From: Cytophagaceae bacterium
GTDB lineage: Bacteria > Bacteroidota > Bacteroidia > Cytophagales > Flexibacteraceae
Length of the DNA stretch: 64,000 nucleotides
Assembly (NCBI GenBank): GCA_027490155.1
Contig: JAIXYP010000007.1
Span: 1-64,000 of the forward strand
Reading direction: 5' to 3'
Under the pieces are notes generated by a model. The model did not search any database, had not been told where the DNA came from, and saw only the letters and a list, made by a program, of their open reading frames with translations. Every line of letters begins with the position of its first letter. The first letter of the stretch is position 1. The translations under genes and the position numbers were made by a program. Positions 11,041 through 53,010 of the stretch are shown piece after piece.

Positions 11041-14000
11041 ATGCTAGACCTGATTACCAAAAGTATAGCCAAGGTATTTGGCACCAAATCTGACCGTGAC
11101 GTCAAGGAGCTCATGCCTTATGTCGGCCTCGTGAATGCGGAGTATGACAAACTAGGCAGCCTTAACGATGACGAGCTTAGGGGCAAAAGCCAAGCCTTGC
11201 GTGCCCAGATCAAACAGGAGCTATCCGAATACGAAGGCAAAATTGCCGAATACCAAGCCAAAACCGCCCCTGGCAGCACAACCACTGCCACAGAAAAGGA
11301 GCAGATTTTTGCAGCCATCGACAAGCTTTATCTGGACCGTAACAAACGGCTAGAGGAGGTTCTTCTCGCTATCTTACCAGAGGCATTTGCTGTTATTAAG
11401 GATACCGCCCGTCGCCTTAAGGAGAACGGCCAGCTGGTCGTGACCGCCACCCCGCACGACGTCTGGATGGCTACTAACCGTGGCCATGTCACGATCCATG
11501 ACGGCAAAGCTACTTGGGCCAACCAGTGGCAAGCTGCTGGTACGACCATCGTCTGGGATATGTTGCACTATGACGTCCAGATTATTGGCGGCGTCGTTTT
11601 GCACAAAGGCAAAATTTCCGAAATGGCTACTGGCGAGGGTAAAACCCTTGTCGCTACCTTCCCTGCCTTCCTAAATGCTTTGGCGGGTTATGGTGTCCAC
11701 ATCGTGACCGTCAATGACTACCTCGCCAAGCGTGATAGCCAATGGATGGGGCCTTTGTTCGAGTTCCATGACATGAAGGTCGATTGTATCGATCAGCATG
11801 AGCCCAATAGCGAAGAGCGTCGTGAGGCCTATTTGGCTGACATTACCTACGGTACCAACAACGAGTTCGGCTTCGACTACTTGCGGGATAATATGGCCCG
11901 TGAGCCTGAAGAGCTGGTGCAGCGCAAACTGCATTATGCAATGGTTGATGAAGTGGATAGTGTCTTGATCGATGACGCCAGGACACCACTCATTATCTCT
12001 GGCCCAATGACTGCTGGCGATCAGCAGGAGTTTGAGGCCCTGCGCCCTCGTGTCAACAAACTTTATGAGGCCCAGCGTGCCATCACCAACAAGTTCCTGA
12101 CCGATGCCAAACGCCTATTAGCCGAAGGCAACACCCAGGAAGGTGGTTTGGCCCTGTTCCGTGCCCATCGTGGTTTGCCGAAGTACAAACCATTGATCAA
12201 ATTCCTGAGCGAGACTGGCAACAAAGCCATCATGCAGAAGATCGAGAACCATTACCTAGCTGACAACAGCAAGGCGATGCCAGAGGCTGACAAGCCGCTG
12301 CTCTTCACGATCGACGAAAAAAATAACCAAGTAGACCTCACCGAGGCGGGCATCAACTACATGACCACCGAGAATGAGGATCCTAACTTCTTCATCCTGC
12401 CAGATCTGTCCACGACACTCACAGCAGTTGACAAAGACAAGGCCCTGTCAGAGGATGACAAGCTCCGGCACAAAGACCAGATCATTGCCGAGTACACCGA
12501 CAAGACAAAACGGATCCATACCATCCAGCAATTGCTGAAGGCCTTTACCTTGTTCGAGAAAGAGGTGGAGTACGTCATCATGGACGGAAAGGTCAAGATT
12601 GTGGATGAGCAAACAGGTCGTATCCTAGACGGTCGTCGCTATTCGGACGGCTTACACCAAGCCATCGAGGCCAAAGAAGGCGTTAAGGTCGAGGATGCTA
12701 CCCAGACTTATGCTACCGTCACCCTCCAGAACTATTTCCGGATGTACCACAAGCTCTCGGGCATGACCGGTACTGCCGAAACTGAGGCTGGCGAATTCTG
12801 GACAATCTATAAGCTAGATGTGGTCGTAATCCCGACCAACCGTCAAGCAGTCCGTAAAGATCACCAAGACAAGGTTTATAAGACAGTCCGTGAGAAATTT
12901 AACGGTGTGGTGGATGAGATCGTTCAGCTAACCGAAAAAGGCCGCCCTGTCCTAGTCGGTACCACCTCGGTCGAGATTAGCGAGCTCCTGAGCCGTATGC
13001 TTAAACTCCGCAACATCAAACACCAAGTACTGAATGCCAAATACCACCAGAAAGAGGCAGAGATTGTAGCCGAAGCTGGTAAGCCTGGCACCGTAACCAT
13101 TGCAACCAACATGGCTGGCCGTGGTACGGATATCAAGTTGTCACCAGAAAGTAAAGCTGCTGGAGGCCTCGCGATCATCGGCACGGAGCGTCACGAAAGC
13201 CGCCGGGTTGACCGCCAGTTGCGTGGTCGATCTGGTCGCCAAGGAGACCCAGGTACCAGCCAGTTCTTCGTTTCGCTCGAAGATAACCTGATGCGTCTAT
13301 TTGGTTCTGACCGTATCGTCAGCCTGATGGACAAAATGGGTCTTGAAGAAGGCGAAGTGATCCAGCATAGCATGATCACGAACAGCATCGAGCGTGCCCA
13401 GAAGAAGGTGGAAGAAAACCACTTCGGTAGCCGTAAGCGCCTATTGGAGTATGACGATGTCATGAACGCCCAACGTGAGGTGATCTACAAACGCCGTCGG
13501 AATGCCCTCTTTGGAGATCGGTTGGAGCTTGACTTGCTCGGCATGACCTACGACAGCTGCGACCGCATCCTGCAAGAAGCCAAAGCGAGCCGCGACTTCG
13601 AACAGTACAAACTCCAAGCCCTACATTGGTTCGGCCTTGCCCCACATAGCATCACACCTGATGCGTTTGAAAAACAGAAAGCCGCTGAGCTGACACCTAT
13701 CTTCTATAAGGAGGTGATGGCTTATTACCGTGAGCGACTCGCAGCCCTGAATGCCGGTGCCTTGCCTGTATTTGAACAAATGCATGCCCAGTTTGGCGAC
13801 CAGCTCGAGAACGTTGTCGTGCCACTCACAGATGGTAAGCGCACTTACCAAGTAGCTGTCGAAATCAAAAAGGCGCTTGCTTCTGGCGGTGCCGAGCTAT
13901 CCCGCACCATCGAGAAGATGGTAACCCTTGGCTTCATTGACCAGCTCTGGAAGGAACACCTCCGAGATATGGATGACCTTAAGCAGGCTAGTAACAATGC

Positions 14001-14412
14001 CTACATCGAGCAAAAGGACCCATTGTTAGTCTATAAGTTCGAGGCACTGCAGCTGTTCAAGACCTTGGTTTACAGGATTAATGAAGATGTCCTGACCTTC
14101 CTCTTTAAGGTGGAAATTCAGCAGGCAGAAGATGCCCCAGAGGTCATCGTGCCACAACGCCAAGCCCCACCCCGCCCAGCTGATAATGCCCGCATCCGGA
14201 CCAGCCGTGACGAAGAGGAAGCCCTAACTGCCGTAGCAGAAGAGCCTGCTCCGCCCGTCAAACGTGCCCCTATCCGTACTGGCCCCGTCATCAACCGCAA
14301 TGACCGTGTCAGCGTGCGCTATGCCAACGGCGAGCTCAAGAAGGACGTCAAGTACAAAACCGTTGAGGACGACATCCTGAACAACCTTTGTGTGGTTGTG
14401 GATATGGCGTAG
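11041..14412 (+). CDS. secA: Preprotein translocase ATPase SecA
   Basis: The 1123-residue SecA drives Sec-dependent export with ATP at the inner membrane. Walker A is MATGEGKT near 195-202, and the DEAD-like motif is in MVDEVDSVLIDDART. The second helicase half has TNMAGRGTDIKL and RQLRGRSGRQGDPG. Two insertions, after the N-terminal helices and after the DEAD region, explain the extra length relative to the E. coli protein of about 900 residues. The C-terminus ends in a basic/acidic segment, RNDRVSVRYANGELKKDVKY, and VVVDMA. The usual CxCxSGxxxxxCC/CH zinc-binding tail is absent, an ending I associate with SecA in this phylum. A strong terminator follows. Confidence 0.99.
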   Translation: MLDLITKSIAKVFGTKSDRDVKELMPYVGLVNAEYDKLGSLNDDELRGKSQALRAQIKQELSEYEGKIAEYQAKTAPGSTTTATEKEQIFAAIDKLYLDRNKRLEEVLLAILPEAFAVIKDTARRLKENGQLVVTATPHDVWMATNRGHVTIHDGKATWANQWQAAGTTIVWDMLHYDVQIIGGVVLHKGKISEMATGEGKTLVATFPAFLNALAGYGVHIVTVNDYLAKRDSQWMGPLFEFHDMKVDCIDQHEPNSEERREAYLADITYGTNNEFGFDYLRDNMAREPEELVQRKLHYAMVDEVDSVLIDDARTPLIISGPMTAGDQQEFEALRPRVNKLYEAQRAITNKFLTDAKRLLAEGNTQEGGLALFRAHRGLPKYKPLIKFLSETGNKAIMQKIENHYLADNSKAMPEADKPLLFTIDEKNNQVDLTEAGINYMTTENEDPNFFILPDLSTTLTAVDKDKALSEDDKLRHKDQIIAEYTDKTKRIHTIQQLLKAFTLFEKEVEYVIMDGKVKIVDEQTGRILDGRRYSDGLHQAIEAKEGVKVEDATQTYATVTLQNYFRMYHKLSGMTGTAETEAGEFWTIYKLDVVVIPTNRQAVRKDHQDKVYKTVREKFNGVVDEIVQLTEKGRPVLVGTTSVEISELLSRMLKLRNIKHQVLNAKYHQKEAEIVAEAGKPGTVTIATNMAGRGTDIKLSPESKAAGGLAIIGTERHESRRVDRQLRGRSGRQGDPGTSQFFVSLEDNLMRLFGSDRIVSLMDKMGLEEGEVIQHSMITNSIERAQKKVEENHFGSRKRLLEYDDVMNAQREVIYKRRRNALFGDRLELDLLGMTYDSCDRILQEAKASRDFEQYKLQALHWFGLAPHSITPDAFEKQKAAELTPIFYKEVMAYYRERLAALNAGALPVFEQMHAQFGDQLENVVVPLTDGKRTYQVAVEIKKALASGGAELSRTIEKMVTLGFIDQLWKEHLRDMDDLKQASNNAYIEQKDPLLVYKFEALQLFKTLVYRINEDVLTFLFKVEIQQAEDAPEVIVPQRQAPPRPADNARIRTSRDEEEALTAVAEEPAPPVKRAPIRTGPVINRNDRVSVRYANGELKKDVKYKTVEDDILNNLCVVVDMA

Positions 14413-17666: not shown

Positions 17667-19037
17667 ATGGACTCACTTGCTTTGCCTGCCCTGATCGGCT
17701 TCATCGGTGGTCATGTTGCCTTGGTCATTGGCACCATCCTCAACATCGTTAAGCCAGCGGCCATACGGGTTCGAGATGACAAAGGAGCCCCACACACCCG
17801 TTACACTGACTCAGGAAAGATCAATTTGGTGTTGTTTTTTGCTGGGATGGCCTTTGTGCTGGCCTGCAATTTCTACTTGCCTTATCCTTGCCCTCAGGGC
17901 CTGACTGGGGCCGAAACTTGCTTCACGTTCAGCGACTACATCCTGAACCTATCGGGTTTTCTGATCCTGATCCCGACCTTTTTCTTGCCCATCGTGTCCG
18001 ACATTTCGGGCTATGAGGTGCATAGCGCTGGCACCATGTTGCCTACCACCTCGCTAGATAGGGTTACCTACCTGTTTATGTTCTGCGGCTTGGCGCTTGG
18101 CGTGCTCAACACGTTCCACCTTCCTGAGGTGCCCTTGCTAATTGACTTCATTGCGAATATCATCGCCTTTATGGCTACCAGCTTTGCTCTCTTGGGTGAT
18201 ACTGTCGAGCACCATGCTGAAGCAGACCCCGAACCAACAGGTAGTTTCAAACGCTTCACACCTGTTGGGCTGCTTGTCGGTTCGGTGGCTTTGATCGGTT
18301 TTTTGCTTAGCTGCAGTACCCTGATCTATACCAACAAAGAGCAGGACAACTTGGCGCGCAACATCGAGGCCGCCAACGCCACCTTGCGTACCTCGGTCAC
18401 CCCCTTGATCGACAAAGTAAATCTCACGCTTGGCACAAGCATCAAGTCCAGCATCGCTGACATTGATCGCCAAAGTGATAGCATAGCGGGCAAGATGCAG
18501 CACATTGAGCAAGGCTTTGCTGACCGTGTGCGCCTCTTGCTAGATGACCCCAAGAACTTACTGGCCAAACAAAACCACTTCCTGCACGAGACCATGGTCA
18601 GTGGGCAGAACTACCTCAAACCCGTGATCGACTCGATGCCGAGGATCCAGCGCAGGATAGCCCTACAGACCATGAACGTTAGGGAAGATCTGATTGACCT
18701 AGAAGAGGAACTGCCAGGCAAAATCGCTGGCGAAGTCACCAAATCTGGCACCATGCAGGCCTTAGAGCGCAACACCCGCGACTTGCCCAGCAAACAAGAC
18801 ATCACAGACATGAACCGGGACATGCTGCGCAGGAACGAGCTTAAACCTGTGCTGGATGGCCTCAGTAACACCCAAGCAGAAACCCGCAAGGAGCTCAACG
18901 AAACCCAACAGGCCGTTACCCGCATGGCCACTATCATCGACAAACACATCTTGCTACCCAAAACCAAATACCGCCCTGGTGACACCCTCTACATCGATGA
19001 TGACGGGGATATCATTTTGGTAGGACGTAGTAAATAG
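17667..19037 (+). CDS. Unknown protein: six membrane helices plus long coiled coil
   Basis: Of the 456 residues, about the first 222 hold six predicted membrane helices: about 3-27, 51-70, 91-110, 136-153, 157-177 and 200-222. A long charged helical region (about 225-425) follows, with features such as TRKELNETQQAVTRMATIID, and then a short beta-like tail YRPGDTLYIDDDGDIILVG. I do not recognise the family. The shape suggests a membrane-anchored scaffold or receptor-like protein whose coiled coil could dimerise. It is a single gene upstream of nhaA, with no terminator between them, so co-transcription is possible. Confidence 0.65.
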   Translation: MDSLALPALIGFIGGHVALVIGTILNIVKPAAIRVRDDKGAPHTRYTDSGKINLVLFFAGMAFVLACNFYLPYPCPQGLTGAETCFTFSDYILNLSGFLILIPTFFLPIVSDISGYEVHSAGTMLPTTSLDRVTYLFMFCGLALGVLNTFHLPEVPLLIDFIANIIAFMATSFALLGDTVEHHAEADPEPTGSFKRFTPVGLLVGSVALIGFLLSCSTLIYTNKEQDNLARNIEAANATLRTSVTPLIDKVNLTLGTSIKSSIADIDRQSDSIAGKMQHIEQGFADRVRLLLDDPKNLLAKQNHFLHETMVSGQNYLKPVIDSMPRIQRRIALQTMNVREDLIDLEEELPGKIAGEVTKSGTMQALERNTRDLPSKQDITDMNRDMLRRNELKPVLDGLSNTQAETRKELNETQQAVTRMATIIDKHILLPKTKYRPGDTLYIDDDGDIILVGRSK

Positions 19038-28545: not shown

Positions 28546-29808
28546 ATGTCAACATCCCTATCCCGTTTCTGGATGCCCCTTTTTGCCGTCGCTGTTTGGT
28601 GTATGGCCCAGGGCATCGCTGTTGGCCAAACGCAAGACGGTAATACCACTACCAACGACCCTACTAAATCTGGCCTTGGGGATGGCCTGAACTTTTCGCT
28701 AAACGAAGGGGACTACCAATTCCGCATTGGTGGATTTTTACAGCCTTCTTGGCAGTACAGCAAACTGGATAATCAGCCAAGGGCCGAGAACATATTCAGG
28801 TCCAAACGTACCTACCTCAACTTTGGGGGCAGTGCACTAAAGGAAAAGGTGAGCTTTTTTGTGCAGGCGGACTTTAGTGCTTCTACGCCCTTACTAGATG
28901 CTTGGTTGGCTTATCACATCACACCCAACTGGACCATCTCTGCTGGGCAACGACGCACCTTCACCAACAACAGGGAGATGACCTTTAACGAGGATCAGCT
29001 TCAGTTTGCAGATCGCAGCCTAACCAGCAATACCTTCGCAGGTAACGGGCGTGAGTTTGGCCTCTTTGTCGAAGGCAAAATAGGCAGCTCGCTTGTTTTG
29101 GTCCCCCAGCTTGCGATTACCTCTGGTGACGGCCCAAACTCCTTCGGCGTCAACAGCACCGATGTGGATCTTGGCGGCTTTAAGTATGGAGGTCGCTTGG
29201 ACATTTACCTGCTGGGTGAGTTTTCTGAAGGCAACCGAGGTCTATCTGCTGATCTAGTCCATGAGACAAAACCCAAAGTGCTGATCGGCCTTGCTGGTAG
29301 CTTCAACCGTGGTGCCAGCAATGCCAAGGGCGAAGGGCACGGTGACTTTTTGCTTTATGGCGAGGACAAAAAATCCAAACTGCCAGATCTCCGTAAGTTC
29401 AGTGTGGATGTCTTGGCCAAATACCAAGGTTTCTCCTTCTTGGGCGAATACATCAATACCTCGGCAGCCAACCTTGCAGGTGTCAGGCTTGATACCTCGG
29501 GCCAAATAACATCTATCCTGCGGCCAGGTCAAATCAGTCAGTACCTCACCCTTGGCAATGCTGTTTCGGCACAGTTAGGCTATGTCACCAAGTCTGGCTA
29601 TGCCCTCGATGTCCGGTACGAAACCCTGAACCCTGAGTTCAAGGACGAACAAGCCTCTATACTTCAGCAGACAACGGCTACCACAGTCGGCCTCAGCAAG
29701 TATTTCAACGGAAATAAACTCAAAGTACAGGCATCAGTCAGCAGCATTATGTATGGCAGTGGCAGGTCTGCCCTCAATACCGAGCTGATGATGCAGGTGG
29801 TCCTCTAA
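28546..29808 (+). CDS. Second outer-membrane porin-like protein
   Basis: The 420-residue protein has a signal peptide (cleavage near VGQ 27). The barrel region resembles that of the porin two genes upstream: an early YQFRIGGFLQPSWQYSK, then RSKRTYLNFGGSALKEKVSF. FAGNGREFGLFVEGKI sits in the middle, and it ends LMMQVVL. Both porins also carry a GxFxxxNGGQ/GEFSEGNRG-type strand. They are paralogs that diverged considerably. It is separated from the carboxypeptidase by 130 bases, and the hydrolase gene starts 53 bases on. Two different porins in one locus suggest two substrates or size classes. Confidence 0.8.
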   Translation: MSTSLSRFWMPLFAVAVWCMAQGIAVGQTQDGNTTTNDPTKSGLGDGLNFSLNEGDYQFRIGGFLQPSWQYSKLDNQPRAENIFRSKRTYLNFGGSALKEKVSFFVQADFSASTPLLDAWLAYHITPNWTISAGQRRTFTNNREMTFNEDQLQFADRSLTSNTFAGNGREFGLFVEGKIGSSLVLVPQLAITSGDGPNSFGVNSTDVDLGGFKYGGRLDIYLLGEFSEGNRGLSADLVHETKPKVLIGLAGSFNRGASNAKGEGHGDFLLYGEDKKSKLPDLRKFSVDVLAKYQGFSFLGEYINTSAANLAGVRLDTSGQITSILRPGQISQYLTLGNAVSAQLGYVTKSGYALDVRYETLNPEFKDEQASILQQTTATTVGLSKYFNGNKLKVQASVSSIMYGSGRSALNTELMMQVVL

Positions 29809-29861: not shown

Positions 29862-31061
29862 ATGACCCAACTCACCCACTTATTTTACGTTCGCCCCCTG
29901 CTGCTGACCGTGTTAGCACTGGTGTTTGGTGGGACTTTTTGGGTGGAAGATTGTCACGCACAATCCTTAACGGCGGGCACGGGAGTATATCAGTTCAGTG
30001 GGCATTCACCCCTGCGCACCAAACCAATCTCAGTATTTTACCATATTCCAACTGGCGGGAACCCTGCCAAGATGCCTATTTTGTTGGCATTCCATGGTGA
30101 GGACCGTGATGGCAATTCCTATCGGCAGGATTGGGTAGCTGCGGCCAACCAGCATCAGTTTATGGTGTTTGCCCTCCAGTTTGACGATAGCTTTTACCCT
30201 GGCGGCGATGGCTATAACCTTGGCAATATGTTCCGTGATGGAGATGCGCCAAGTGCAAGTACCCTGCAGCCAGACTCCGTTTGGACCCTTGCGGCCATTG
30301 ATCCACTATTCAGGGATATTAAGTCTCGCACTGGCTCGGTTGCTAATAGTTATGTGGCATTTGGCCACTCGGCAGGGGCGCAATTTTTGCATCGTTTTGT
30401 GCTATACCAGCCTAATAGCTTGATGCGTAAAGCCATAGCTGCCAATGCGGGTTGGTACACGGTGCCTATCGCATCCCAGACTTATCCTTATGGCCTTGGC
30501 CTCAGCCCGATGACATCAACCCAATTGACATCGGCCTTTGCCAAGCCTCTGTTGGTCTTCCTAGGCAAGCTAGATACCAACCCCAACTCGCCTGGCTTGC
30601 GGCATAATAGCCAGACGGATGCACAAGGACTTTATCGGTTAGCACGTGGCCGCTATTTCTTCAATCAAAGTCGGGCACAAGCGCAGCAAAGCACTGCTGT
30701 TTTTGGCTGGTCCTTGGCAGAAGTTGCGGGTGTGGGACATGACCATACGCTAATGGCCATCAATGCTCTGCCCTACGTCCTAGATGCCTTTGAGCCTAGC
30801 CAGCTATCACCTTCGATCCCAGCTTTACGGCTCTGTTGGTTAACTGACGGGGGCATCCAATTATCTGGTCTTCAGCCAGCTGAGACTTACTCGATCCAGT
30901 TGTTTGATAGCTATGGTAGGTTGGTTGGGCAGTTTACAGGTCAGGCACCAGATGCTGATGCCAAGGTTATACCATTCGTGCCACGCACCAGCACCTTATA
31001 TATTGCCCAGATCAAGGCTAGCGGCCATGCTGATCAGTGCTTTAAGCTTATTACCTATTAG
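29862..31061 (+). CDS. Secreted alpha/beta hydrolase with T9SS-like tail
   Basis: The 399 residues start with a signal peptide (cleavage near HAQ 34). The catalytic domain (about 55-310) has a hydrolase fold: the oxyanion loop is near LLAFHGEDRDGN, the nucleophile Ser170 is in FGHSAGAQF, Asp238 is in LGKLDTN and the His is in GVGHDHTLM (His293 or His295). This most resembles PHB-depolymerase- or feruloyl-esterase-type hydrolases. From about 315 a beta-rich segment with YSIQLFDSYGRLVGQFTG and KLITY resembles a T9SS sorting domain, so the enzyme is probably surface-bound or secreted. The substrate cannot be told; its place in the transporter cluster suggests an ester or amide. Confidence 0.72.
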   Translation: MTQLTHLFYVRPLLLTVLALVFGGTFWVEDCHAQSLTAGTGVYQFSGHSPLRTKPISVFYHIPTGGNPAKMPILLAFHGEDRDGNSYRQDWVAAANQHQFMVFALQFDDSFYPGGDGYNLGNMFRDGDAPSASTLQPDSVWTLAAIDPLFRDIKSRTGSVANSYVAFGHSAGAQFLHRFVLYQPNSLMRKAIAANAGWYTVPIASQTYPYGLGLSPMTSTQLTSAFAKPLLVFLGKLDTNPNSPGLRHNSQTDAQGLYRLARGRYFFNQSRAQAQQSTAVFGWSLAEVAGVGHDHTLMAINALPYVLDAFEPSQLSPSIPALRLCWLTDGGIQLSGLQPAETYSIQLFDSYGRLVGQFTGQAPDADAKVIPFVPRTSTLYIAQIKASGHADQCFKLITY

Positions 31062-35782: not shown

Positions 35783-37966
35783 TTGGCAGTCTACATCCAT
35801 TTTGGCTATGCTACTGCTTGCGCGTTGATATTGAACAGATTGATACACAAACCTGAATTCCTGTTGGGCGATATACGAAGGCTAACCTATTGTGGTTGGC
35901 TGATGATAATTTTTACCTGTTTGGTAGCCAATGCTTGTTTTGCCCAAACTAAAGTGGCAAGGTCATGGTACTTGGACTCAATGAATGTGCAACTCTGGCA
36001 AACGGAGGGTAGGGGACAGGTAGTAGGTTTGACGGCACCTTTCCCGAAGGCAGCAGTTCAGACCCGTCGTGGATTGCTAGGCTCAGTGCCATCGGCGGCT
36101 CGATATGATTTACATGGCAAAGCAATCAGGTTTTTGGCATGGGTGGGTCTCCGATCTACTGCAGCCAACAAAGCTGTTTTCTCGGTTTTGGCGGATGGGC
36201 AGGAGCTTTTCAGAAGCGACTCTTTGCTGCCTAGTGCTACCCCTTTACTGATTGATCTTGACCTCACAGGTAAACAGAACCTAGAGCTACTGGTCGATGC
36301 TGGTTGGGCCACAGAGCTCAAACCATGTGCCTTTTGGGCTGATGCGCGGATCGTGGTCCAACCATTGGCGTCCTATCCACAAGACCAGCCTGTCATCATT
36401 CCGTTCCTCAACGAAGCAGATGCCCCTGCCGTCGGTGAGATTTTCAGCCGCCCCTATTGTGCGCTGCCTAAAACCTTAAGCTACCGTCCAGGCCAGATCA
36501 TTAGGCAGCGTTTGATGGTAACAGGTCCTAGGCCAATTTCCGTTAAAGTTGTTGGTTTGCCCGCCGGAATCACCCATGATCCTGAAACGCAAACCCTAAA
36601 TGGCCGTATCGAGAACATGGGTAACTACCCCTTCGCCATTGTGGTCAATGCGGGTGGTACGACCCTCAAACATTACGTTACACTCCAGATTGGCCTAGCC
36701 CCCCCACCTCAATTGCCATTACGTGGCTGGATAAGCCCTCGACTATTAGGTCCCATCCTGCGCCAGACCGATGTGCAACAAGCTGGGATGGGCCTGATCA
36801 ACTCGGGCTTGGCAGATTTGGGCTTTGACTGGCTTGTGATTGGCGAAGGTTGGCAGGGTCAGCGCGAAGGTCGATACCATGCCTTGCAACCAAACGAGCG
36901 ATTTAGGGAGCTGCCCGGTCTAATCAACAAATCAAGGCAACTGGGCCTCAAGGCTGGGCTATGGCTCAGCACCGAACGCTATTCGGCCAGTGGGTATATT
37001 GGCAGCCATGCTGACACTTGGATTGGTGCTCTGAAAGATGAGTTTAATGGATTGCCTCGGGGCAAGTTTAGCTTTGCTGCTGAGGACGTCAAGCAGTGGA
37101 ACGAATGGAGGGTGGATGGACTTTGGCTTTATGGGCCAGACCTGGAGCCTGCCGATGTTGCGACCTATAACGCCCAAATGGCCAAGGCACTCCCTACCCG
37201 TTTGCTATCTCTGGAACATAACAAACTCCGACCTACGAGCTTTAAACTTCCCTCTGGACAGGCCCAGCAACAGTTGTTTGAGTCCACCACTCGCCCGACG
37301 GACTCGTGGTTTGTGTTACGACAGCAGGTTTTGGCTGCCACCAAAGGCCTAAATCCTGATCTTCCCATAACAGGTCGCCTCATCTTATCCGAGCCGATCG
37401 GTATGACGGGTCCCAATGGCCAGGTTATCAAAGGACGCCGTGCAAGACTATCAGCCCATACCCGGCGGTTACAGTTTGGGCTATATTCCTTGCTCGGCCT
37501 ACCCCTCTGGCTTCAGGATAACCCACTTTGGTTGCTCAAGCACAACCCTAATGACCTTTATTGGCTTACCAATCAGGAGGTGCTGGCCATACAACGGGAC
37601 CAAAGCTCCGTGGCAACCTGTGCGCAATGGGATCAACAGCATCAAACAGGTATCTGGGCCCGCCACCTAGAGAATGGCAGTACTGTCGTAGGATGGCTCA
37701 ACATGACAGGGCAGGTTCAGACTATCCCTTTTCAGATAACGGGTACCTTTGCTGTGCGTGACCTTTGGCGTCATGAGTCAATTGGTGATGTGCCTGGAAC
37801 AGGGGAGATCAGCTGTGAGGTGGCACCTTATGGGCTTGAGCTTTGGCTCCTGACCCCAATCAAAGCCAAGGTCAAAGGTGTCAAGGGTAAAATCAGCCCA
37901 GCTATGTTTAAGTCTGCTCAAAGCCCGAGACGCAAAGTCCCAGCAAATCCAAATCTTAAGCGTTAA
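35783..37966 (+). CDS. GH27-like protein with NPCBM domain, catalytic motifs lost
   Basis: The frame gives 727 residues from TTG 35783; later starts near residues 28 or 41 are possible. A hydrophobic signal region ends at CFAQ (about 55). An NPCBM-type carbohydrate-binding sandwich lies at about 57-195, with YDLHGKAIRFLAWVGL. A putative-Ig domain is at about 225-300, and a GH27/GH36-like barrel with a C-terminal sandwich runs from about 300. Barrel landmarks remain: LRGWISP for PPMGWNSW, GLADLGFDWLVIGEGW for GLxxxGYxYVxIDDgW, and NQEVLAIQRDQ. The nucleophile motif KYD reads LYG, the DD pair reads GE, and WNDPD is absent. Only RPTDSW keeps an Asp in the acid/base region. It is probably a secreted, non-hydrolytic glycan-binding protein. 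Confidence 0.7.
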   Translation: MAVYIHFGYATACALILNRLIHKPEFLLGDIRRLTYCGWLMIIFTCLVANACFAQTKVARSWYLDSMNVQLWQTEGRGQVVGLTAPFPKAAVQTRRGLLGSVPSAARYDLHGKAIRFLAWVGLRSTAANKAVFSVLADGQELFRSDSLLPSATPLLIDLDLTGKQNLELLVDAGWATELKPCAFWADARIVVQPLASYPQDQPVIIPFLNEADAPAVGEIFSRPYCALPKTLSYRPGQIIRQRLMVTGPRPISVKVVGLPAGITHDPETQTLNGRIENMGNYPFAIVVNAGGTTLKHYVTLQIGLAPPPQLPLRGWISPRLLGPILRQTDVQQAGMGLINSGLADLGFDWLVIGEGWQGQREGRYHALQPNERFRELPGLINKSRQLGLKAGLWLSTERYSASGYIGSHADTWIGALKDEFNGLPRGKFSFAAEDVKQWNEWRVDGLWLYGPDLEPADVATYNAQMAKALPTRLLSLEHNKLRPTSFKLPSGQAQQQLFESTTRPTDSWFVLRQQVLAATKGLNPDLPITGRLILSEPIGMTGPNGQVIKGRRARLSAHTRRLQFGLYSLLGLPLWLQDNPLWLLKHNPNDLYWLTNQEVLAIQRDQSSVATCAQWDQQHQTGIWARHLENGSTVVGWLNMTGQVQTIPFQITGTFAVRDLWRHESIGDVPGTGEISCEVAPYGLELWLLTPIKAKVKGVKGKISPAMFKSAQSPRRKVPANPNLKR

Positions 37967-43611: not shown

Positions 43612-46600
43612 ATGGGACATACGTTTACATCAACGAATTTAGGCAAAGGATTATGGCTAGGCTTGGTCATGATTTGCGCAATGCTCTTACCAGACCTAGT
43701 GCAGGGGCAAGGGGCTGTGGTTTGGTCCACGGCCACCACTAGTACATCTGGCACCTATCTTACAGGTACCTCCTCAAGACGCAATCAGGTTCTGTATCCT
43801 GCCTCTGAGCTTACAGGCGCCTTGAGTGGGTCTATCACCAAGATATACTTCAAGCGTGGATCTACCGCTACTAACGCTTTGTCTATGGCTAACCTCCAGA
43901 TTAGGATGGGCCAGACGGCGAATACGGCATTTCCTAACTCTACCCTCGCGACTGGCCTAACAACTGTTTTCACAAGCGCAACCTTCACTCAGGGTACAGG
44001 TACTATCGATACTTGGTTTTCGATAACCCTCGACACGCCTTTTCCATACAATGCAGGTCAATCGCTCATTATAGAAACTGAGTATACCGGAACGCCAACC
44101 AACGGGATTACCATAAGATCCACTGCAACATCAACGCCTTTGCGGCGTTTAACCTCTGCTGGCAGCGCAAGCTTACCTTATTCCACTGCCACTACAGGTA
44201 CGACTTCTGGTTTTGTACCAGCTTTCAGTTTTGATGTTACCACTGTTGCCCGTGACGCGGCTCCTATCAACGTGGTTAGTAGCCCAGCCATTAGCTCCTT
44301 GATCTGTAGCGGTGGTACCACAGCTTTGTCTGCCACAATCCAGAACGTCGGTAGCAGCGCTATGACTAGCGTCAAGTTTAACTGGTTTGTTAATGACGTC
44401 CTGCAGGGAAATATCTCAGCCACAGGGCTCAACGTAGCACAAGGTGCGTCAACAGATGTAAGTTTAGGCAATTACAACTTGCCAGCATCATTGCCACGCA
44501 ACGTACGTTTCAAATTTGTCATCACAGAGATCAACGGAAGCACCGACCAAAACGCAAATAACGATAGCTATAACTCGACCTTTTTCAAAAGCGGGTACTC
44601 TGGCACCATTAGCGCAGGCAGTGGTGGCACCTTCCCGACCATACAAGCGGCTATTGACTCGCTTAATTCGCGAGGACTGTGTGGTGCATGTACGCTCAAT
44701 ATCAAACCAGGTACTTACACCGGCCAGTATCAGATTAATGCCTTAACAGGATCAAGCGCTACCAACAGATTGACCATCAAGCCAGAGTCGGGCACTGCCA
44801 CCCTCGCATTTGATGCATCAACAACGGGCAACAACTATATCCTATCGCTCAACAGTGCAGATTATGTAACCATCCAAGGCCTAACCTTTGACAGGAGTAC
44901 TGCAAGCGTTACACCGACCTTGTCACGTATTCTGGACATTAGTGGTGGCTCTGATTATGCTATCGTGACGGGTAACACCTTTAACGGGTTTAACTACGCC
45001 ACTGGTGCAACCTCCAATGCTTTTGCTAGTATCTATAGCAATACCACTATAGACCTCGCCACGACCATCACCAACAATACTTTTAACAACAACGGTGCAG
45101 GTATTGCTCTTTCAGCTGTAGCTGCAGCAGACGAAGCTGGACATACAATTACAGGCAATACGGTCAATACCTTCTATTACGGGATTTGGCTCCTGAACAT
45201 AGCTGGCGGTGCTACGATTACTAATAACACTGTTAACCGATATGATCAAACGCCAAGTACCACACTTTTCCAAGGCATAGTCTGTAGCGGTGTCGATGGT
45301 TATTTACAGATCAATAACAACACAGTCAATACCTATACCTCTGGTTATGGTATCTATTTAACAGGTTGTGAGGGTCTATCAGGCAACCGCAGTAAGGTCT
45401 ATAACAACCTACTTTCAGTTGGTGGTACAGGCACTGCCTACGCCTTGTCTACTTTGGGTACAACCAACAATGTTGATATCTACTTCAATAACTGTAGGGC
45501 TGGTAGCTCAAATGCCACAGCCTCTGGCAACAATGCTTGGTACAACACCACAACGGTTGCCACGTCTGCAATTGTCGTGAGGAACAACAACTTTGCTGTT
45601 TATGGTACCGCTGGCTATGCTGTCTATATTTCGAACGCAACAGGCGGCACCGGGATTACCACGAGCAATAACAACTTCTACTCGACTACAGCTCAGTTTG
45701 GTTTTTATGCAGCTGCAGTAGCAGATCTTGCTGCCCTCAACTCAACGTCAGGCAATAGGTTCCCTACCAGCTTTACATTGGACCCTGACTATGTATCTGC
45801 TACCAATCTACATATCCAGAACAGCAATCTGGCTTTCAAAGGCGCTTCAGGCACAGGGATCACAACAGACTTTGATGGCCAAACCCGTGATGCCAGCCAG
45901 CCGACAATTGGTGCTGACGAGATATTCCCTGTGACTCGTGACATCGCGGTATCTGATGTCATTTTAGGCCAAGCCTCACTTTGTGGTTCAGGTTCAACTC
46001 CTGTTAGTTTCTCTGTGACCAATGCGGGTCTATCGACTGTCACTCAGGCTTCGGTGACCTATTTTACAACCGTCAATGGGGTCGAAGGCACAGGTACAAC
46101 TCAGGTATTTTCAGGTCTCAGCCTTGCTACTGGTGCATCGACTACTTTGTCATTCACGACGCCAATGTCTTATGCTAGCACAGGATCTTATCAAGTCCGG
46201 GTGACTAGTGCAGGCGTCAATGGCGAGTCAGATCAGGTAGCTAGCAACAACACTGCCCGCAGCATCACGACGCACCATGGTTATACCGGTGTGTTGACAA
46301 TGAACCCTGGTGCTGCTGCATCTGCTACCAACTTTACCTCGATGCAAGCAGCACTTGACTCAGTGGTTTCTCATGGCCTTTGTGGCGCGACGACACTCAA
46401 CATCGCTGCAGGCACCTACAATGGTCAGTATGCCCTGTCACCAATCCCAGGTTCTAGCGCAACGAACACACTCTTGATTAAACCATCTTCTGGCACCGTC
46501 ACCCTTGCTTTTGATGCAGGCATCGGCGGGCAGAACTACATCTTGGCTATGAACGGTGCTGACTATGTTACGATCCAGAACATCGTTTTTGACCGGAGTA

Positions 46601-49600
46601 ACTATGCAGGTACACCAACACTGTCTCGTTGTCTTGATGCGAGCAACGGCACCGATTACCTAACCGTTACGGGCTGTACCTTTAATGGTTTTGCTTATAC
46701 CGCATCAGCCACGACAAATCTAACTGCCTCGATTTTTAGCAATGTCTCCATTGACCTCGCCACCACCATTACAAACTGTACCTTCAACAATAATGGCATT
46801 GGAGTTAGCCTCAATGGCATTGCAGCAACGCTAGAAGGGCCACATGTAGTGACCGGAAATACCGTAAATACGTTTAGTTATGGCATTTACTTCGCCTCAA
46901 TGACTGGCGGAGTGACAGCAAGTAACAATACCATCGACCGTTATGACCAAACCCAGACCACATCTTTCTACGGCATCTATTTCACTGCTGTAGATGGCAA
47001 GCTCTTAGTCCAGAACAACAAAATCAATGGGTACACCTCAGGTTATGGCATCTACATGACCAACTGCGATGGTATCCCTGGCGATAATGGTGTCGTCTCT
47101 AATAACCAGATCAGCTTTGGAGGTGCAGGTACAGTTAACGGCATCTATACTTTAGGCAGTACAGCCAATCTTGATATTCTGTTTAATAATATCAGGGCTG
47201 CAAGCTCAACAGCTACTGCAGGTAGCAACGTTTGCTATTATCAGTCTGCAACCACAGGTACAACCAATAGCATTAAGGTCCATAACAATAACTTTGTTGT
47301 CTCCGGAACCAATGGCTATGCTATTTATGTTTCATCTGCCACTACTTCTGGTTTGGTGATTTCAAGTGCAACACATAACAACTTGTATAGCACGACTGCT
47401 AACTATGCCTTTTGGGGTGCTGCAGTTGCAGACCTTGCAGCACTTAATACCGCTAGCAGCAACAAGTTCACCAATACCATATCGGTTGACCCAGGGTACG
47501 TATCGGACAATGACGTTACCTCAACCAACTTGGCCTTAGCATTTACTGGCAAGTCAGGCACCGGCATCACGACCGATTATGCCAATGTAAGTCGGAATGC
47601 CACCCTGCCAACGATTGGTGCAACCGAGCTTTTCCCACCTACCGATGATGCTGGTGTTACAGCCATCAATCCTAGCATGTCAGTAGTCTGCGCCAACGGT
47701 AGCTCAACGCTTAGCTTTACGCTTATCAACCAAGGTCTGGCAACATTGACCTCTGTCAGGGCTACTTATTATGTAACAGTTAATGGTGTAGAGGGTACTG
47801 GTGTCGTCCAGAACTTTACAGGCCTCAATATCCCGAATGCAGGCGGGACTGCACAACTTTCGTTTACGACACCTTGGGCTCATACCTACGGATCTTATTA
47901 TCAGTTCCGTGTCGTGACAAGCTTGCCAAACAACGCTGCAGATGCAAATGCTGCCAATAATGAACTGATCTCGAGGACCTATCGTCCAGCTTTCTTGGCT
48001 AATGCGACGGTAAATCCAGGACTTGCACAGTCAACAACCAATTTCCAGACGATTCAGCTAGCCTTTGACTCTTTAGCAGCACGCGGTATTTGTGGCAACA
48101 CAACCTTGACAATTGCACCAGGTACTTATACTGGCAAAGTCCAGCTACGGGATATCCCGGGTACTAGTCCTGTTGCTCGCCTTACCATCCTTGGTGGTGG
48201 TACAACACCTAGCCAAACCTTATTGACCCAGCCTGGATCAACTACGGTGGGAAGTAACTGGGTCTTCTCTGGCCTAGGCATACACGATGTTACAATTCAG
48301 AAACTCAGCTTCGAACGTACCGGAGATTCGGTCCAGACCTACAGTACTTGTTTGGACCTAAGCGGTGGTGTGTCAAACGTTGTTGTCAATAACTGCAACT
48401 TCCAATCGGTGGCAATTGCCACTGGTAGTGCCACTGGTAACTCTTCTGGTGTATATAGTGGCACTGCTGGTATTGACAGCGATGTTACAATTCAGAACTC
48501 GTTCTTCAACGGGGTATCGGCAGGTGTACACTGGGCGGGTATCAGTGCCGCCTCACCAGATCCTGGCCTACATGTTCTCAACAACGTGATCAATAACGGT
48601 AGCTACGGTGTTTACCTCACAGGTTGTACTAACCCTGAGGTTTCGGGCAACAAAATCCGCAGGACGTATCAAACCAAAACCGGTGTTACCGCCTACGGTA
48701 TCTATATGACCGCTGGTGCTAACGGGTCTGACCTGCAACGGAACGAGATTCGGTATTATGGTGGTACCATCTACGGTATTTATTACACGGGTGTTGCTGG
48801 TACTAGCACCAACCCTAATAATTTGGTCAACAATTATGTCTATGCAACTGGCACTGGTGCCAACTACCTGATTTATCACACAGGCCTGTCGCATTACCTA
48901 CAAGCATACCATAACACGATTGTTACCTCTACAGTCGGTGCCAATTATGGATATTATGGCATCTCTACTACGGCGACCAATATCACGTTAAACAATAACT
49001 TGTTCGTGAGCCTCGGTTCTGCTGCTGCAACGCAATATCCATTCTATATAGCTGCTGCTGGTGTGGCTAATATTATCTCGGCACAGAACAATACAATCCA
49101 TAATGGCAAACCAGGGACCTTTGGGTTCTTTGGTGCCATCCATGCCGATATGGCTGCGTTTGTGACGGCTGGTGCAGGAAAAACAGACGGAACAACAAGT
49201 GTCAATCCGCTTTTCCTTACCGAGGACTCATATCAGTTTACTAATCCTACGCTTGACGGATCTGGTCTGACAACATTGGGCATCAATACCGACATTGAAG
49301 GCAATAGCCGTACCGGGGCACTTGATAATGGTGCCTATGAGTTCACACCACCAGCACGTGACGTAAACCTTGTTTCATTGGTTTCGGAGCACATATGTAT
49401 TGGTGGTAATCAACCCGTTGTTATCAGGATTAGTGATGTTGGTACTGATAACGTGACGAGTGTCCGTATCAACTGGTCTGTTAATGGTGTTTCTCAACCA
49501 CAAGCCAATATTACTGGCCTTTCGATGACTAGTGGTTCATCCACCAACGTCACGCTTGGCAATTATACTTTTGCGGCAGGAACCTATACCATCGATGCTA

Positions 49601-52600
49601 CAGTTGCTGGCGTCAACGGAAGTAATGACCAAAATCCGCTAAATGATGCCCTTGCAACGGCAACCGTTGTTACTGTAGGCAATTCTGCCATGGCTTTGCC
49701 TTACGTCCTTGACCTAGAAAGCACAACTGTGAACACAGGTATCCCGACCTTCTGGACTGCAAGTCCGATTCAGTCAGGTACCGCTTACCGTTGGGCAGTT
49801 GGCGAAGGACCATTAGGTTCTGCCTCTTCGGGCCCTAACGTTGATAACACTCTCGGGACCGCCATAGGTAATTATTTATACACTACCGCGGCCAATGGTG
49901 TCAGCGGTGATGTGGCAACCTTTACGTCCGACTGTATCAACCTAGGTTCGATCAACACGCCCGCAATTAGGTTCTTCTACCACCGTTACGGAGCTACCAC
50001 TCCTGTCCTTCATATCGACGTTTACAGCAACGGTAGCTGGACTAATGGTGTCTATACCATGACTGGTCAGGATCCGCAGCAAACTGCTGCTACCTCTGCT
50101 TGGAAACAAGTGACCGTGCCACTAGGTACCTATAGTGGCGTAATCAAAATCAGGTTCCGTGCTATCCGTGGTACTAGTACTACTGGCGAGACTGCCATTG
50201 ACGATATCCGGATATTTGATGGCTCGGTTGCTGATCTTACCCTGACCGCAATCACTAGGGCTAGCACAAGCTGCCCTACAAGCAGCGAAATGATCCAGAT
50301 GACTGTCCAGAACCTGAGCAGCAACGCACACAACTTTGCGCTAAGGCCAGCTACTTTCGTCTTGACGGCAACAGGTGCTGCTACATTCACCCGGACGATT
50401 GTTTGGAATGGCGGCACTTTGGCAGCCGGAGCTACTTCAGTGCTTAATGTATTCGCTAATATTAACGGCACAGCTGCAGGCACCTATACCTTTAACGCTA
50501 CAATGGCATTGCCTGCTGGTCAGGATGACAACCCGACCAACAACAATGCAGCCTCTCCTTTGGTATTGGTTAACGCTGGTACGCAAGCACTCCCTGTGTT
50601 CTTCAACGGTGGTAGATTTACGGGTGCCAACCTTTCTACAGTCCGTCCGGGATGGTCTGAAGCTACAGGAGCTACCATCCCAACAGGCACAACCTCTAGC
50701 TGGTTACAAGGCACTGCCTTTACTGGCGATACCGTTGTTAGGATCAATTTGATTACTGCTACCAAACGCGAATGGTTAATCTTACCACGGATCAATGCCA
50801 GTGCCAATACCAAACTTAGGTTCCGGACTGCCCTTACGAATGCCGCCGCAACCACGGTAGATGACCACAATGCATTCGCTGGTACTGATGACTTTGTCGA
50901 GGTACGCGTCAGCACTGACTGCGGTACTACCTGGACTGGCGTTTATACCATGAACGAAGCTTGGCAGAATGCCAACAGCGTGTCCAACGCTTTCAAACCG
51001 TTTACAGTGAATTTAGCTGCATATGCTGGTCGTCAGCTGATCGTGGCCTTCTTCGCAAGCGAGGGTACTGTTGACAACATCAATAGCTATGACGTTCTGC
51101 TCGATGATATTGCCCTCACAGACAATGACTTCTTGACTTGGACGGGTGCACAAAGTAACGTGCCGACTAACAAGTACAACTGGACACCTTGGTTTGCACC
51201 ACAAGAAAACTGGATCTGTAATATTGCAAATGCCACTACCAAGCCGACCTTTAGTGCATACACTACGGTTGGTGGGTTCAACATGGCAAACGGTGGTACT
51301 GTTAACTTCACAGGCAATCCTGCTATTCGTATCCTGCATAACTTTAGCACAACAAGTGATGTCTATACCATCAATGGTGGCTACAAGTTGATCGTGAGCG
51401 GTAATACAGCTCAATCTATCGGCGCCAAAGGCAGACCACTTAGCCCATTGAGCTTGACAATCAATAACCCGGCTGGTGTTACTCTGACCTCAGAGGCTCG
51501 TGTGACTGATACGCTCAACCTTTACAATGGTGTTTTCAACCTCAACAATAACAAGTTGACCATGGTTAGCACCTCAACTACAACCGCCCGGATTGCCCCA
51601 ATTACTAGTGGGTCATTGGCTAATGCTAGCAACTTTACCTACCAACGCTATATCGCCCCTCCTGCTGGCAACCTGCAAGGTGGATGGTATTTTGTCGGTA
51701 CTGGTGTCAATAACAACACGGTCAATGCTTGGGCTAACAGGACTACGTATTCACCAAGTACGTATTTGCCAACAGGGTCGTCACAACTTTGGTTGTATGA
51801 CAATGCAAACAACACCGTGCCTGCCAACAATGGCTGGGTTAAGCCAACGGCTCCGTCTCAGGCATTAGCAGTAGGTCAGGGTGCACGTTTCTACTTCCAG
51901 TTCTACTTCTGGTCGCAACATGGTGGTGTCTACGAGACTAAAGGTGTGCCACACACAGGCAACTACAACTTCACCCCGCTGCTCAACTACTGTACATCTG
52001 GCTGCGCCTGGACTGCCACAAATGGTTGGAGCCTGCTAGCTAACCCGTATGTCAGTACCATCAACTGGGACTCGCCGTCTTGGACAAAATCTGCAGCCAT
52101 TGCTGATGAAGTTAAAGTCTGGAACAACAGCATTGGTAACTATGCTAGCTACGTAGCTGGTGTTGGTACGCTTGGTGGTAGCAACTTGTTAGCTTCTGGT
52201 CAAGGTTTCATGGTACGTGCCCTAAGCACAATCACGAGCAATGACCTAGTTGCGACCGAAGGTGTTAAGGTCACCAGTGCCAACTTCTTGCGCCAAGCCG
52301 CCCTGACCCAGATTATGCGCATCAATATCAAGGATGCAGCTAACCATCAGGACGAAGCAGTAGTTCGCCTAGTTCCAGGTGCTACTTCTGGCTATGATGC
52401 TGCCCTAGATGCCACGTATCTCGAAGGTACCTACCTCAACGTCTATACCGCACCAAGGCCTGACACCAAGTTGTCTATCAATGCGCTCGATGTCCCAACA
52501 AGCACTGTTTATGTCCCGATGGGACTTAAAACCTCTGAGCTTGGTACACATACCATGACCTTCAGTGGCTTAAGTGACTGGACTGGTAGCTACCAAGTCT

Positions 52601-53010
52601 ATCTAGATGACAACTACCTCGGTACTCGTCGTCAGCTACAAGAAGGTAGCATCGTATCGTTCAACGTCAGCAACGTCCCTAATACTACCGGTCTAGGTCG
52701 TTTCACCCTCGTGATGATGCCTGGTGCTGTTACTGCACTTCCAACGCTTAATCCTGCCGCTGTCTTTACTGCCTATCCAAACCCAGGCAAATCATCTGAC
52801 ATCCGTTTGATGGTATCTGGCATGGGTGCTGGCAAAGGCAAAGTGATGGTAACGGATGTTGTCGGTAAAGTCGTTGCAACACAAGTTGTTGACCTATCTG
52901 GCCAAGACGACCAAGCCTTTAAATTGGCTTCTGAGTTATCATCTGGCATCTATCACGTCAGCATACAAGCTAACAGCACCCACAAGACCATCAAGCTAGT
53001 GGTCGAGTAA
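43612..53010 (+). CDS. Giant T9SS cargo with three tandem CARDB plus beta-helix modules
   Basis: The 3132-residue protein starts with a signal peptide (cleavage near VQGQ 33) and a beta-sandwich domain of about 170 residues. Three tandem modules follow, starting at 44251, 45937 and 47641, each about 1.7 kb. Each has a CARDB-like domain, then a right-handed beta-helix opening with a pattern like TIQAAIDSLNSRGLCG and closing with PTIGADEIF or similar. A fourth CARDB-like domain at 49355 leads to a MAM-like domain, another CARDB, and a choice-of-anchor-J-type domain to about 51120. The last 630 residues are beta-rich and end in a type A T9SS tail (FTAYPNPGKSSDIRLMVSG to IKLVVE). It is probably an adhesin or matrix protein; no enzyme motif is evident. 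Confidence 0.9.
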   Translation: MGHTFTSTNLGKGLWLGLVMICAMLLPDLVQGQGAVVWSTATTSTSGTYLTGTSSRRNQVLYPASELTGALSGSITKIYFKRGSTATNALSMANLQIRMGQTANTAFPNSTLATGLTTVFTSATFTQGTGTIDTWFSITLDTPFPYNAGQSLIIETEYTGTPTNGITIRSTATSTPLRRLTSAGSASLPYSTATTGTTSGFVPAFSFDVTTVARDAAPINVVSSPAISSLICSGGTTALSATIQNVGSSAMTSVKFNWFVNDVLQGNISATGLNVAQGASTDVSLGNYNLPASLPRNVRFKFVITEINGSTDQNANNDSYNSTFFKSGYSGTISAGSGGTFPTIQAAIDSLNSRGLCGACTLNIKPGTYTGQYQINALTGSSATNRLTIKPESGTATLAFDASTTGNNYILSLNSADYVTIQGLTFDRSTASVTPTLSRILDISGGSDYAIVTGNTFNGFNYATGATSNAFASIYSNTTIDLATTITNNTFNNNGAGIALSAVAAADEAGHTITGNTVNTFYYGIWLLNIAGGATITNNTVNRYDQTPSTTLFQGIVCSGVDGYLQINNNTVNTYTSGYGIYLTGCEGLSGNRSKVYNNLLSVGGTGTAYALSTLGTTNNVDIYFNNCRAGSSNATASGNNAWYNTTTVATSAIVVRNNNFAVYGTAGYAVYISNATGGTGITTSNNNFYSTTAQFGFYAAAVADLAALNSTSGNRFPTSFTLDPDYVSATNLHIQNSNLAFKGASGTGITTDFDGQTRDASQPTIGADEIFPVTRDIAVSDVILGQASLCGSGSTPVSFSVTNAGLSTVTQASVTYFTTVNGVEGTGTTQVFSGLSLATGASTTLSFTTPMSYASTGSYQVRVTSAGVNGESDQVASNNTARSITTHHGYTGVLTMNPGAAASATNFTSMQAALDSVVSHGLCGATTLNIAAGTYNGQYALSPIPGSSATNTLLIKPSSGTVTLAFDAGIGGQNYILAMNGADYVTIQNIVFDRSNYAGTPTLSRCLDASNGTDYLTVTGCTFNGFAYTASATTNLTASIFSNVSIDLATTITNCTFNNNGIGVSLNGIAATLEGPHVVTGNTVNTFSYGIYFASMTGGVTASNNTIDRYDQTQTTSFYGIYFTAVDGKLLVQNNKINGYTSGYGIYMTNCDGIPGDNGVVSNNQISFGGAGTVNGIYTLGSTANLDILFNNIRAASSTATAGSNVCYYQSATTGTTNSIKVHNNNFVVSGTNGYAIYVSSATTSGLVISSATHNNLYSTTANYAFWGAAVADLAALNTASSNKFTNTISVDPGYVSDNDVTSTNLALAFTGKSGTGITTDYANVSRNATLPTIGATELFPPTDDAGVTAINPSMSVVCANGSSTLSFTLINQGLATLTSVRATYYVTVNGVEGTGVVQNFTGLNIPNAGGTAQLSFTTPWAHTYGSYYQFRVVTSLPNNAADANAANNELISRTYRPAFLANATVNPGLAQSTTNFQTIQLAFDSLAARGICGNTTLTIAPGTYTGKVQLRDIPGTSPVARLTILGGGTTPSQTLLTQPGSTTVGSNWVFSGLGIHDVTIQKLSFERTGDSVQTYSTCLDLSGGVSNVVVNNCNFQSVAIATGSATGNSSGVYSGTAGIDSDVTIQNSFFNGVSAGVHWAGISAASPDPGLHVLNNVINNGSYGVYLTGCTNPEVSGNKIRRTYQTKTGVTAYGIYMTAGANGSDLQRNEIRYYGGTIYGIYYTGVAGTSTNPNNLVNNYVYATGTGANYLIYHTGLSHYLQAYHNTIVTSTVGANYGYYGISTTATNITLNNNLFVSLGSAAATQYPFYIAAAGVANIISAQNNTIHNGKPGTFGFFGAIHADMAAFVTAGAGKTDGTTSVNPLFLTEDSYQFTNPTLDGSGLTTLGINTDIEGNSRTGALDNGAYEFTPPARDVNLVSLVSEHICIGGNQPVVIRISDVGTDNVTSVRINWSVNGVSQPQANITGLSMTSGSSTNVTLGNYTFAAGTYTIDATVAGVNGSNDQNPLNDALATATVVTVGNSAMALPYVLDLESTTVNTGIPTFWTASPIQSGTAYRWAVGEGPLGSASSGPNVDNTLGTAIGNYLYTTAANGVSGDVATFTSDCINLGSINTPAIRFFYHRYGATTPVLHIDVYSNGSWTNGVYTMTGQDPQQTAATSAWKQVTVPLGTYSGVIKIRFRAIRGTSTTGETAIDDIRIFDGSVADLTLTAITRASTSCPTSSEMIQMTVQNLSSNAHNFALRPATFVLTATGAATFTRTIVWNGGTLAAGATSVLNVFANINGTAAGTYTFNATMALPAGQDDNPTNNNAASPLVLVNAGTQALPVFFNGGRFTGANLSTVRPGWSEATGATIPTGTTSSWLQGTAFTGDTVVRINLITATKREWLILPRINASANTKLRFRTALTNAAATTVDDHNAFAGTDDFVEVRVSTDCGTTWTGVYTMNEAWQNANSVSNAFKPFTVNLAAYAGRQLIVAFFASEGTVDNINSYDVLLDDIALTDNDFLTWTGAQSNVPTNKYNWTPWFAPQENWICNIANATTKPTFSAYTTVGGFNMANGGTVNFTGNPAIRILHNFSTTSDVYTINGGYKLIVSGNTAQSIGAKGRPLSPLSLTINNPAGVTLTSEARVTDTLNLYNGVFNLNNNKLTMVSTSTTTARIAPITSGSLANASNFTYQRYIAPPAGNLQGGWYFVGTGVNNNTVNAWANRTTYSPSTYLPTGSSQLWLYDNANNTVPANNGWVKPTAPSQALAVGQGARFYFQFYFWSQHGGVYETKGVPHTGNYNFTPLLNYCTSGCAWTATNGWSLLANPYVSTINWDSPSWTKSAAIADEVKVWNNSIGNYASYVAGVGTLGGSNLLASGQGFMVRALSTITSNDLVATEGVKVTSANFLRQAALTQIMRINIKDAANHQDEAVVRLVPGATSGYDAALDATYLEGTYLNVYTAPRPDTKLSINALDVPTSTVYVPMGLKTSELGTHTMTFSGLSDWTGSYQVYLDDNYLGTRRQLQEGSIVSFNVSNVPNTTGLGRFTLVMMPGAVTALPTLNPAAVFTAYPNPGKSSDIRLMVSGMGAGKGKVMVTDVVGKVVATQVVDLSGQDDQAFKLASELSSGIYHVSIQANSTHKTIKLVVE
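44251..49354 (+). repeat. Three tandem ~1.7-kb coding modules within the giant gene
   Basis: Units at 44251-45936, 45937-47640 and 47641-49354 each encode a CARDB-like domain plus a beta-helix. Units 1 and 2 share long stretches, such as the conserved DLATTITN and NTVNTF segments. Unit 3 keeps the plan but has diverged. The spacings are 1686, 1704 and 1714 bases, which indicates successive duplication of a whole module. Confidence 0.8.

Follow-up and report, generated by a model that had tools for sequence, protein, structure and literature searches.

A GH27-derived protein with a predicted loss of the acid/base residue is maintained by purifying selection in two Cytophagaceae genomes

The window, which is the whole stretch of 64,000 nucleotides of DNA analysed here, comes from the genome of a Cytophagaceae bacterium (3.99 Mb in 69 contigs) and contains, at positions 35783 to 37966 of the forward strand, an open reading frame of 727 amino acids with a TTG start, which was confirmed as a real gene as the initial annotation had described it. 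A cytidine-deaminase-type gene, for which the name tadA-like was assigned by us, ends 23 bases upstream on the same strand, and a SUI1 gene, also on the + strand, begins 51 bases past the end of the ORF; the ORF and its neighbours are alike in G+C. Scans for promoters and terminators gave no more matches than were found in shuffled sequence, and an NCBIfam search of the protein returned nothing at E 1. Other genes in the window include those for a protein of 3132 aa at 43612-53010, in which MAM and CARDB domains are accompanied by a type IX secretion tail, and for SecA (1123 aa, 11041-14412), in which a DEAD-like domain match covers aa 10-587 for a model of 290 positions, part of this span belonging to the cross-linking domain (aa 409-543). 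For the ORFs at 28546-29808 (420 aa), 29862-31061 (399 aa), and 17667-19037 (456 aa), Pfam returned nothing at the thresholds applied. The features identified in the gene are as follows.

35783..37966, + strand, whole ORF, 727 aa, a GH27-derived, probably exported protein
35864..35947, + strand, likely signal peptide, aa 28-55, identified by eye
36065..36352, + strand, NPCBM domain, aa 95-190 (Pfam PF08305, E 4.2e-14, 53.2 bits, cut-off 23.9)
36455..36697, + strand, Ig-like (He_PIG-like) domain, about aa 225-305, limits set by eye
36698..37612, + strand, GH27-type barrel from alignments, about aa 306-610, limits set by eye
36842..36847, + strand, G354-E355, replacing the substrate-binding DD in all alignments
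37115..37141, + strand, presumed strand b4 region, D445-D453, DGLWLYGPD in place of D-x-L-K-Y-D
37280..37294, + strand, E500 to R504, where the alignments replace R227 with E500 and the acid/base D231 with R504 (human numbering), a charge swap
37352..37360, + strand, N524-P525-D526, a possible WNDPD remnant, with a rival match at LSEPI, aa 535-539
37643..37849, + strand, Melibiase C-terminal beta-sandwich, aa 621-689 (Pfam PF17801, E 1.1e-10)
37853..37963, + strand, basic C-terminal tail, 11 K/R and 0 D/E in 37 aa

The TTG start listed for the ORF is doubtful when compared with the TTG at 35864 (aa 28), which is associated with a more usual signal-like sequence and may be the true start; cleavage would then probably occur near CFA/Q. 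The ATG at aa 41 of the ORF is GTG in the orthologue described below. The signal-like N-terminus, as read by eye, suggests that the protein is probably exported or secreted. It is followed, in this order, by the NPCBM domain, the Ig-like domain, the GH27-type barrel, and the melibiase C-terminal domain, the last of which was absent from the initial annotation. Both the NPCBM and the Ig-like domains precede the barrel as had been claimed, the He_PIG match being a weak one (aa 250-303, 17.3 bits, below the cut-off of 24); the Ig-like region is also supported by hhalign and by phmmer alignments that begin at aa 232 for 4ogz and at aa 236 for 4nzj. The five canonical homologues aligned lack the basic tail.

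The Melibiase_2 Pfam match in the barrel scored 16.6 bits, below the cut-off of 23. The protein could be aligned over its full length with two canonical GH27 paralogues of the same genome at 27-28% identity, an HMMER profile of 32 fetched ORFs scored 192.6 bits against it, and hhalign against seven canonical rows gave a probability of 100 and an E of 4.5e-45 over 561 columns. In the alignment with the canonical paralogues, the GH27 framework starts with GW (aa 315-316) and ends with NQEVLAIQRD (aa 597-606), in agreement with the initial annotation. These comparisons, together with a Melibiase_C match that exceeds its cut-off, show GH27 family homology across the catalytic barrel and the C-terminal domain. 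Among solved structures, the closest in sequence carry the annotation alpha-galactosidase and are headed by 4ogz and 4nzj, which are probably the two uncharacterised Bacteroides fragilis group I proteins mentioned in PMC4598101. These putative alpha-galactosidases have, like the window protein, an Ig-like domain followed by a GH27 barrel, but their chains hold the DD, KYD, R...D, and WNDPD motifs, unlike the window protein. AlphaFold models from two runs on two-row alignments only (the window protein and its orthologue) had mean pLDDT values of 32.1 and 32.0 and were not used.

The two paralogues, located on contigs C62 (L011) and C41 (L014), share with the window protein, as do other canonical GH27 proteins of this architecture, the order of NPCBM, Ig-like, barrel, and C-terminal domains and the homology over the full length. 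They differ from it in keeping DD, KYD, R...D, and (W/F)ND-x-DM; in the window protein, GE replaces DD and E...R replaces R...D, and both the Lys and WNDPD are lacking. The C62 paralogue adjoins an ATP synthase gamma-like gene, as identified by eye, in both species (L011:1429-4501 and L010:286-3354).

An orthologue that is 89-90% identical, with the same gene order and neighbours, was found in one other genome of the genus (G001), at L002:1322-3511, with the same coordinates in L023, and is open over 729 codons. L023 is the contig CANHWS010000175.1 of a metagenome-assembled genome, 'Cytophagaceae bacterium isolate RE-27jun17-70', a name placed by NCBI in Cytophagales. A third orthologue was not found in overlapping draws of 59 relatives and of 395 genomes of the class, 390 of the order, 11 of the family, and 395 of the phylum. 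Matches at the cut-offs used were found in 9 of the 59 relatives and in 5/395, 12/390, 2/11, and 6/395 genomes of the other draws, respectively, and the cut-offs of 1e-15 and 1e-20 applied in three draws could hide a strongly diverged orthologue. A contig scan with two short peptide patterns, which would pick up close relatives only and from which records very near the window were possibly excluded, returned L023 alone, and no GH27 relative was found in the viral contigs searched. At the SUI1 loci of other genera of the family (three of nine, L114-L116, with about 1.5 kb on each side read by eye), no such deaminase or GH27-like ORF adjoined. A DNA pattern for WNDPDM matched 59 stretches, and the 33 ORFs with NDPDM that were tested were rejected, since at E 1e-3 none of them had a match to the window protein or to the C62 paralogue.

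The window protein grouped with its orthologue in a tree of 29 rows, and the C62-type paralogues were nearest to this group by path. The stem of this pair measured 4.46 changes per column, compared with 0.78 for the C62-type pair, in a tree whose midpoint root serves for drawing only; with the long branches and odd composition, the exact placement of the pair is unsure. Only these two sequences of this form are known, and therefore, as they are 90% identical, the conservation of any single pocket residue carries little weight.

Selection was estimated from the comparison of the window gene with its orthologue. The dN/dS was 0.086 for the whole ORF, 0.062 for the barrel, and 0.063 for the mature part (bootstrap 0.044-0.084), with 223 synonymous and 67 non-synonymous differences in the latter. 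As yardsticks, the same two genomes gave 0.068 for the tadA-like gene, 0.057 for SUI1, 0.050 for the C62-type pair, and 0.028 for the atpG-like gene, so that the mature protein resembles its neighbours in this respect. By segment, aa 306-445 gave 0.025 and aa 446-610 gave 0.119, and the values of the NPCBM region and the C-terminal domain were 0.071 and 0.047, respectively; bootstrap intervals for the N-terminus and the tail, which are very short segments, were unreliable and were not used. Since dN/dS is low overall and lowest, at 0.025, in aa 306-445, the protein is maintained, and its first barrel half most of all, while the second half, in which the nucleophile and acid/base positions lie, shows a looser but still clear constraint. 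The very long stem of the pair and the drifting tail (dN/dS of about 1.1) could be taken to indicate a pseudogene, or early decay after the loss of an enzymatic role. However, in both species the frame is uninterrupted, over 727 and 729 codons, and the mature part is constrained (dN/dS of 0.063), so that this explanation is hardly credible and was rejected on dN/dS: the gene is not decaying and is maintained by purifying selection in both species. In the tail of the orthologue, the sequence drifts and the charge is kept (13 K/R and 0 D/E in 39 residues).

It has been reported that the nucleophile and the acid/base of the rice GH27 enzyme (1UAS) are Asp130 and Asp185 (PMC2670981), the latter being, by its number, the Asp of the RTTGDI motif, and that those of human alpha-galactosidase A are D170 and D231, with W47, D92, D93, Y134, C142, and K168 as other active-site residues and E203, L206, Y207, R227, D266, and M267 further listed (PMC8234732). 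According to PMC12137362, conservation of the catalytic Asp residues across GH27 is strong. For the window protein, sites were mapped by profile alignment to 1UAS and to the C62 paralogue. The human residue numbers were transferred onto the aligned columns by motif, a correspondence that we take to hold. The canonical set for comparison was derived from 56 hits, 32 of which were left after removal of duplicates and 27 of which were used; the window protein, its orthologue, L006 and L007 (NPCBM match only), and L015 (a fragment) were left out, and L008, a short NPCBM match with stops, was likewise unused.

Nine of the active-site positions (W47, D92, D93, Y134, K168, D170, R227, D231, and D266) are kept in all 27 canonical homologues, and seven of these nine differ in the window protein in every alignment made: W47 is replaced by P319, D92 by G354, D93 by E355, Y134 by W394, R227 by E500, and D231 by R504, and K168 is lost. 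With such retention in the canonical homologues, the pattern of replacements is beyond chance. The replacements were read from MAFFT and HMMER alignments of the window protein and the orthologue, with which hhalign agrees for the pair; the orthologue has the same residues. When compared with other near-invariant barrel columns, 19 of 40 of which are kept, the active-site columns are kept in one of nine cases (Fisher p 0.064, only suggestive), or in two of nine if D453 is the nucleophile. The GE that had been aligned by eye to the DD pair was recovered as G354-E355 in all alignments, the D93-to-E change being a conservative one.

The acid/base column is occupied by R504 in the MAFFT, HMMER, and hhalign alignments of both species. 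In a pair-HMM posterior analysis of 24 combinations (three profiles, two targets, and four gap settings), with a model that has uniform gap costs and no secondary structure, R504 was the top residue at this column in all 24 runs, and no acidic residue was among the candidates listed. Its posterior ranged from 0.19 for the orthologue with loose gaps to 0.97 for the window protein, and a gap was more probable than R504 in 4/24 runs. The GH27 acid/base Asp of the RTxxDI motif appears, therefore, to be missing from the window protein, and the galactose-binding residues D92, D93, K168, and R227 appear not to be retained. The WNDPD motif had been said not to be found; it is indeed absent as such, but it may partly survive as the NPD of N524-P525-D526 (T-P-D in the orthologue), which competes with L535-S-E-P-I539 for the same columns.

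The nucleophile position is more complex. In the orthologue, the presumed strand b4 region is DGLWLYGSD. KYD is deleted by HMMER and by MAFFT under three settings. Under a high gap cost, MAFFT places Y450 at the nucleophile column, and hhalign places D453 there after an insertion of three residues. In the posterior analysis, this column received 0.62-0.89 for D453, no more than 0.18 for Y450 and D458, and no more than 0.05 for G451. The alignment of KYD to LYG in the initial annotation consequently finds little support, the alternatives being a deletion, Y450, or D453. The segment PDLEPADV of the window protein resembles YDWAPLDV of its own paralogue with equal spacing. However, the spacing from the first Asp of the strand to the nucleophile is 5 in 27/27 canonical homologues (25 rows by pattern, with L042 counted by its nearer Asp, and the rows L020 and L009, which were read individually) and would be 8 with D453, and the three-residue insertion in the barrel strand that this needs was found in 0/27. 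D453 is thus a possible counterpart of the nucleophile, favoured at the level of sequence and yet requiring an insertion in strand b4. Of the initial claim that the catalytic residues are lost, the part that concerns the acid/base Asp holds in every alignment, and the nucleophile may be either lost or retained as D453.

This bears on the possibility that the protein is a working glycosidase or another carbohydrate-active enzyme with an altered mechanism, in which D453 (or Y450) would act as nucleophile or base and E500, E537, or E355 as acid, E500 having been brought in by the charge swap of R227E and D231R. Such an enzyme is conceivable because both species have acidic residues (E355, D453, E478, E500, and E537) on or close to the aligned motif positions and because the GH97 family demonstrates that the nucleophile can be replaced among the relatives of GH27: inverting GH97 members have Gly in place of the GH27 Asp nucleophile and use a Glu base. 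One of them, the alpha-glucosidase BtGH97a, which is structurally related to GH27, has Gly469 at this position and uses Glu439 as base, with Glu532 at the acid position and a calcium site (PMC2670981). The posterior of D453, the resemblance of PDLEPADV to the paralogue, and the first barrel half as the most constrained part of the protein would also be consistent with an altered enzyme. In contrast, the acid/base position is occupied by Arg, the counterparts of K168 and R227 are lost, D453 needs the insertion in strand b4, and the second barrel half is less constrained. Furthermore, BtGH97a keeps Glu at the acid position, where the window protein has Arg, and with G451 so poorly placed at the nucleophile column the GH97 pattern of Gly at the nucleophile position, Glu base, and Glu acid does not appear to be present. 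An altered enzyme is, for these reasons, somewhat unlikely, though to be taken seriously. It is distinctly unlikely that the charge swap, a D453 displaced by the insertion in strand b4, and E355, E478, and E537 make up a new catalytic or metal-binding constellation; if true, this would be a mechanism undescribed in the GH27/GH36/GH97 group.

Alternatively, binding could be the task of the NPCBM domain, in a structural or cell-surface glycan-binding protein whose barrel is mainly a scaffold. The NPCBM match is well above its cut-off, a basic tail has been added, and the second barrel half is the least constrained mature segment. However, the first barrel half is under tighter constraint than the NPCBM region (0.025 and 0.071, respectively), which a mere spacer would not need, and a scaffold role of this kind is very unlikely. 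Contact of the protein with glycans is argued for only by the NPCBM domain, and binding of alpha-galactosides in the barrel pocket seems unlikely because most of the galactose-holding residues of GH27 are missing.

Since the acid/base and the sugar contacts appear lost while the gene is conserved, we favour a repurposed barrel: a GH27-derived protein without the GH27 acid/base, whose pocket has been rebuilt for another ligand and which would most likely bind this ligand without hydrolysis, a view that we hold with slightly better than even confidence. It would descend from a bacterial GH27 enzyme with the NPCBM-Ig-barrel-Melibiase_C architecture. The double-displacement reaction of GH27 would have been lost with the replacement of the acid/base Asp by Arg504 and of most of the galactose-holding residues, and the pocket would have been rebuilt with E355, W394, W448/Y450, E500, and R504, among others, and kept by selection. 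The canonical paralogues on C62 and C41 may supply GH27 activity. The initial suggestion of a pseudoenzyme or an enzyme with an altered mechanism can be retained, because the alignments show the loss of the acid/base and most sugar contacts in the orthologue as well and purifying selection acts on the gene.

Pseudoglycosidases have been described in several GH families, and YKL-39, klotho (GH1-like), and CyRPA (GH33-like) have glycosidase folds that are without catalysis and are kept for binding (PMC7828330), a fate that the window protein may share. These three proteins belong to GH families other than that of the window protein. YKL-39 is presumably GH18-like. That review nowhere uses the word galactosidase, and no GH27 pseudoenzyme was found in the open-access literature searched, including PMC2670981, PMC4598101, PMC12137362, PMC8234732, PMC10976572, and PMC7828330. 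A pseudoglycosidase is characterised by the loss of an essential catalytic residue and by maintenance of the gene; by alignment the acid/base appears to have been lost, and the gene is maintained by selection. The best reading is that the window protein is a GH27-derived case of this known kind. Annotation by Melibiase_C or GH27 homology would label the gene an alpha-galactosidase, probably wrongly. As a conserved exception beside two canonical paralogues, it would represent a natural experiment in the repurposing of a barrel glycosidase pocket.
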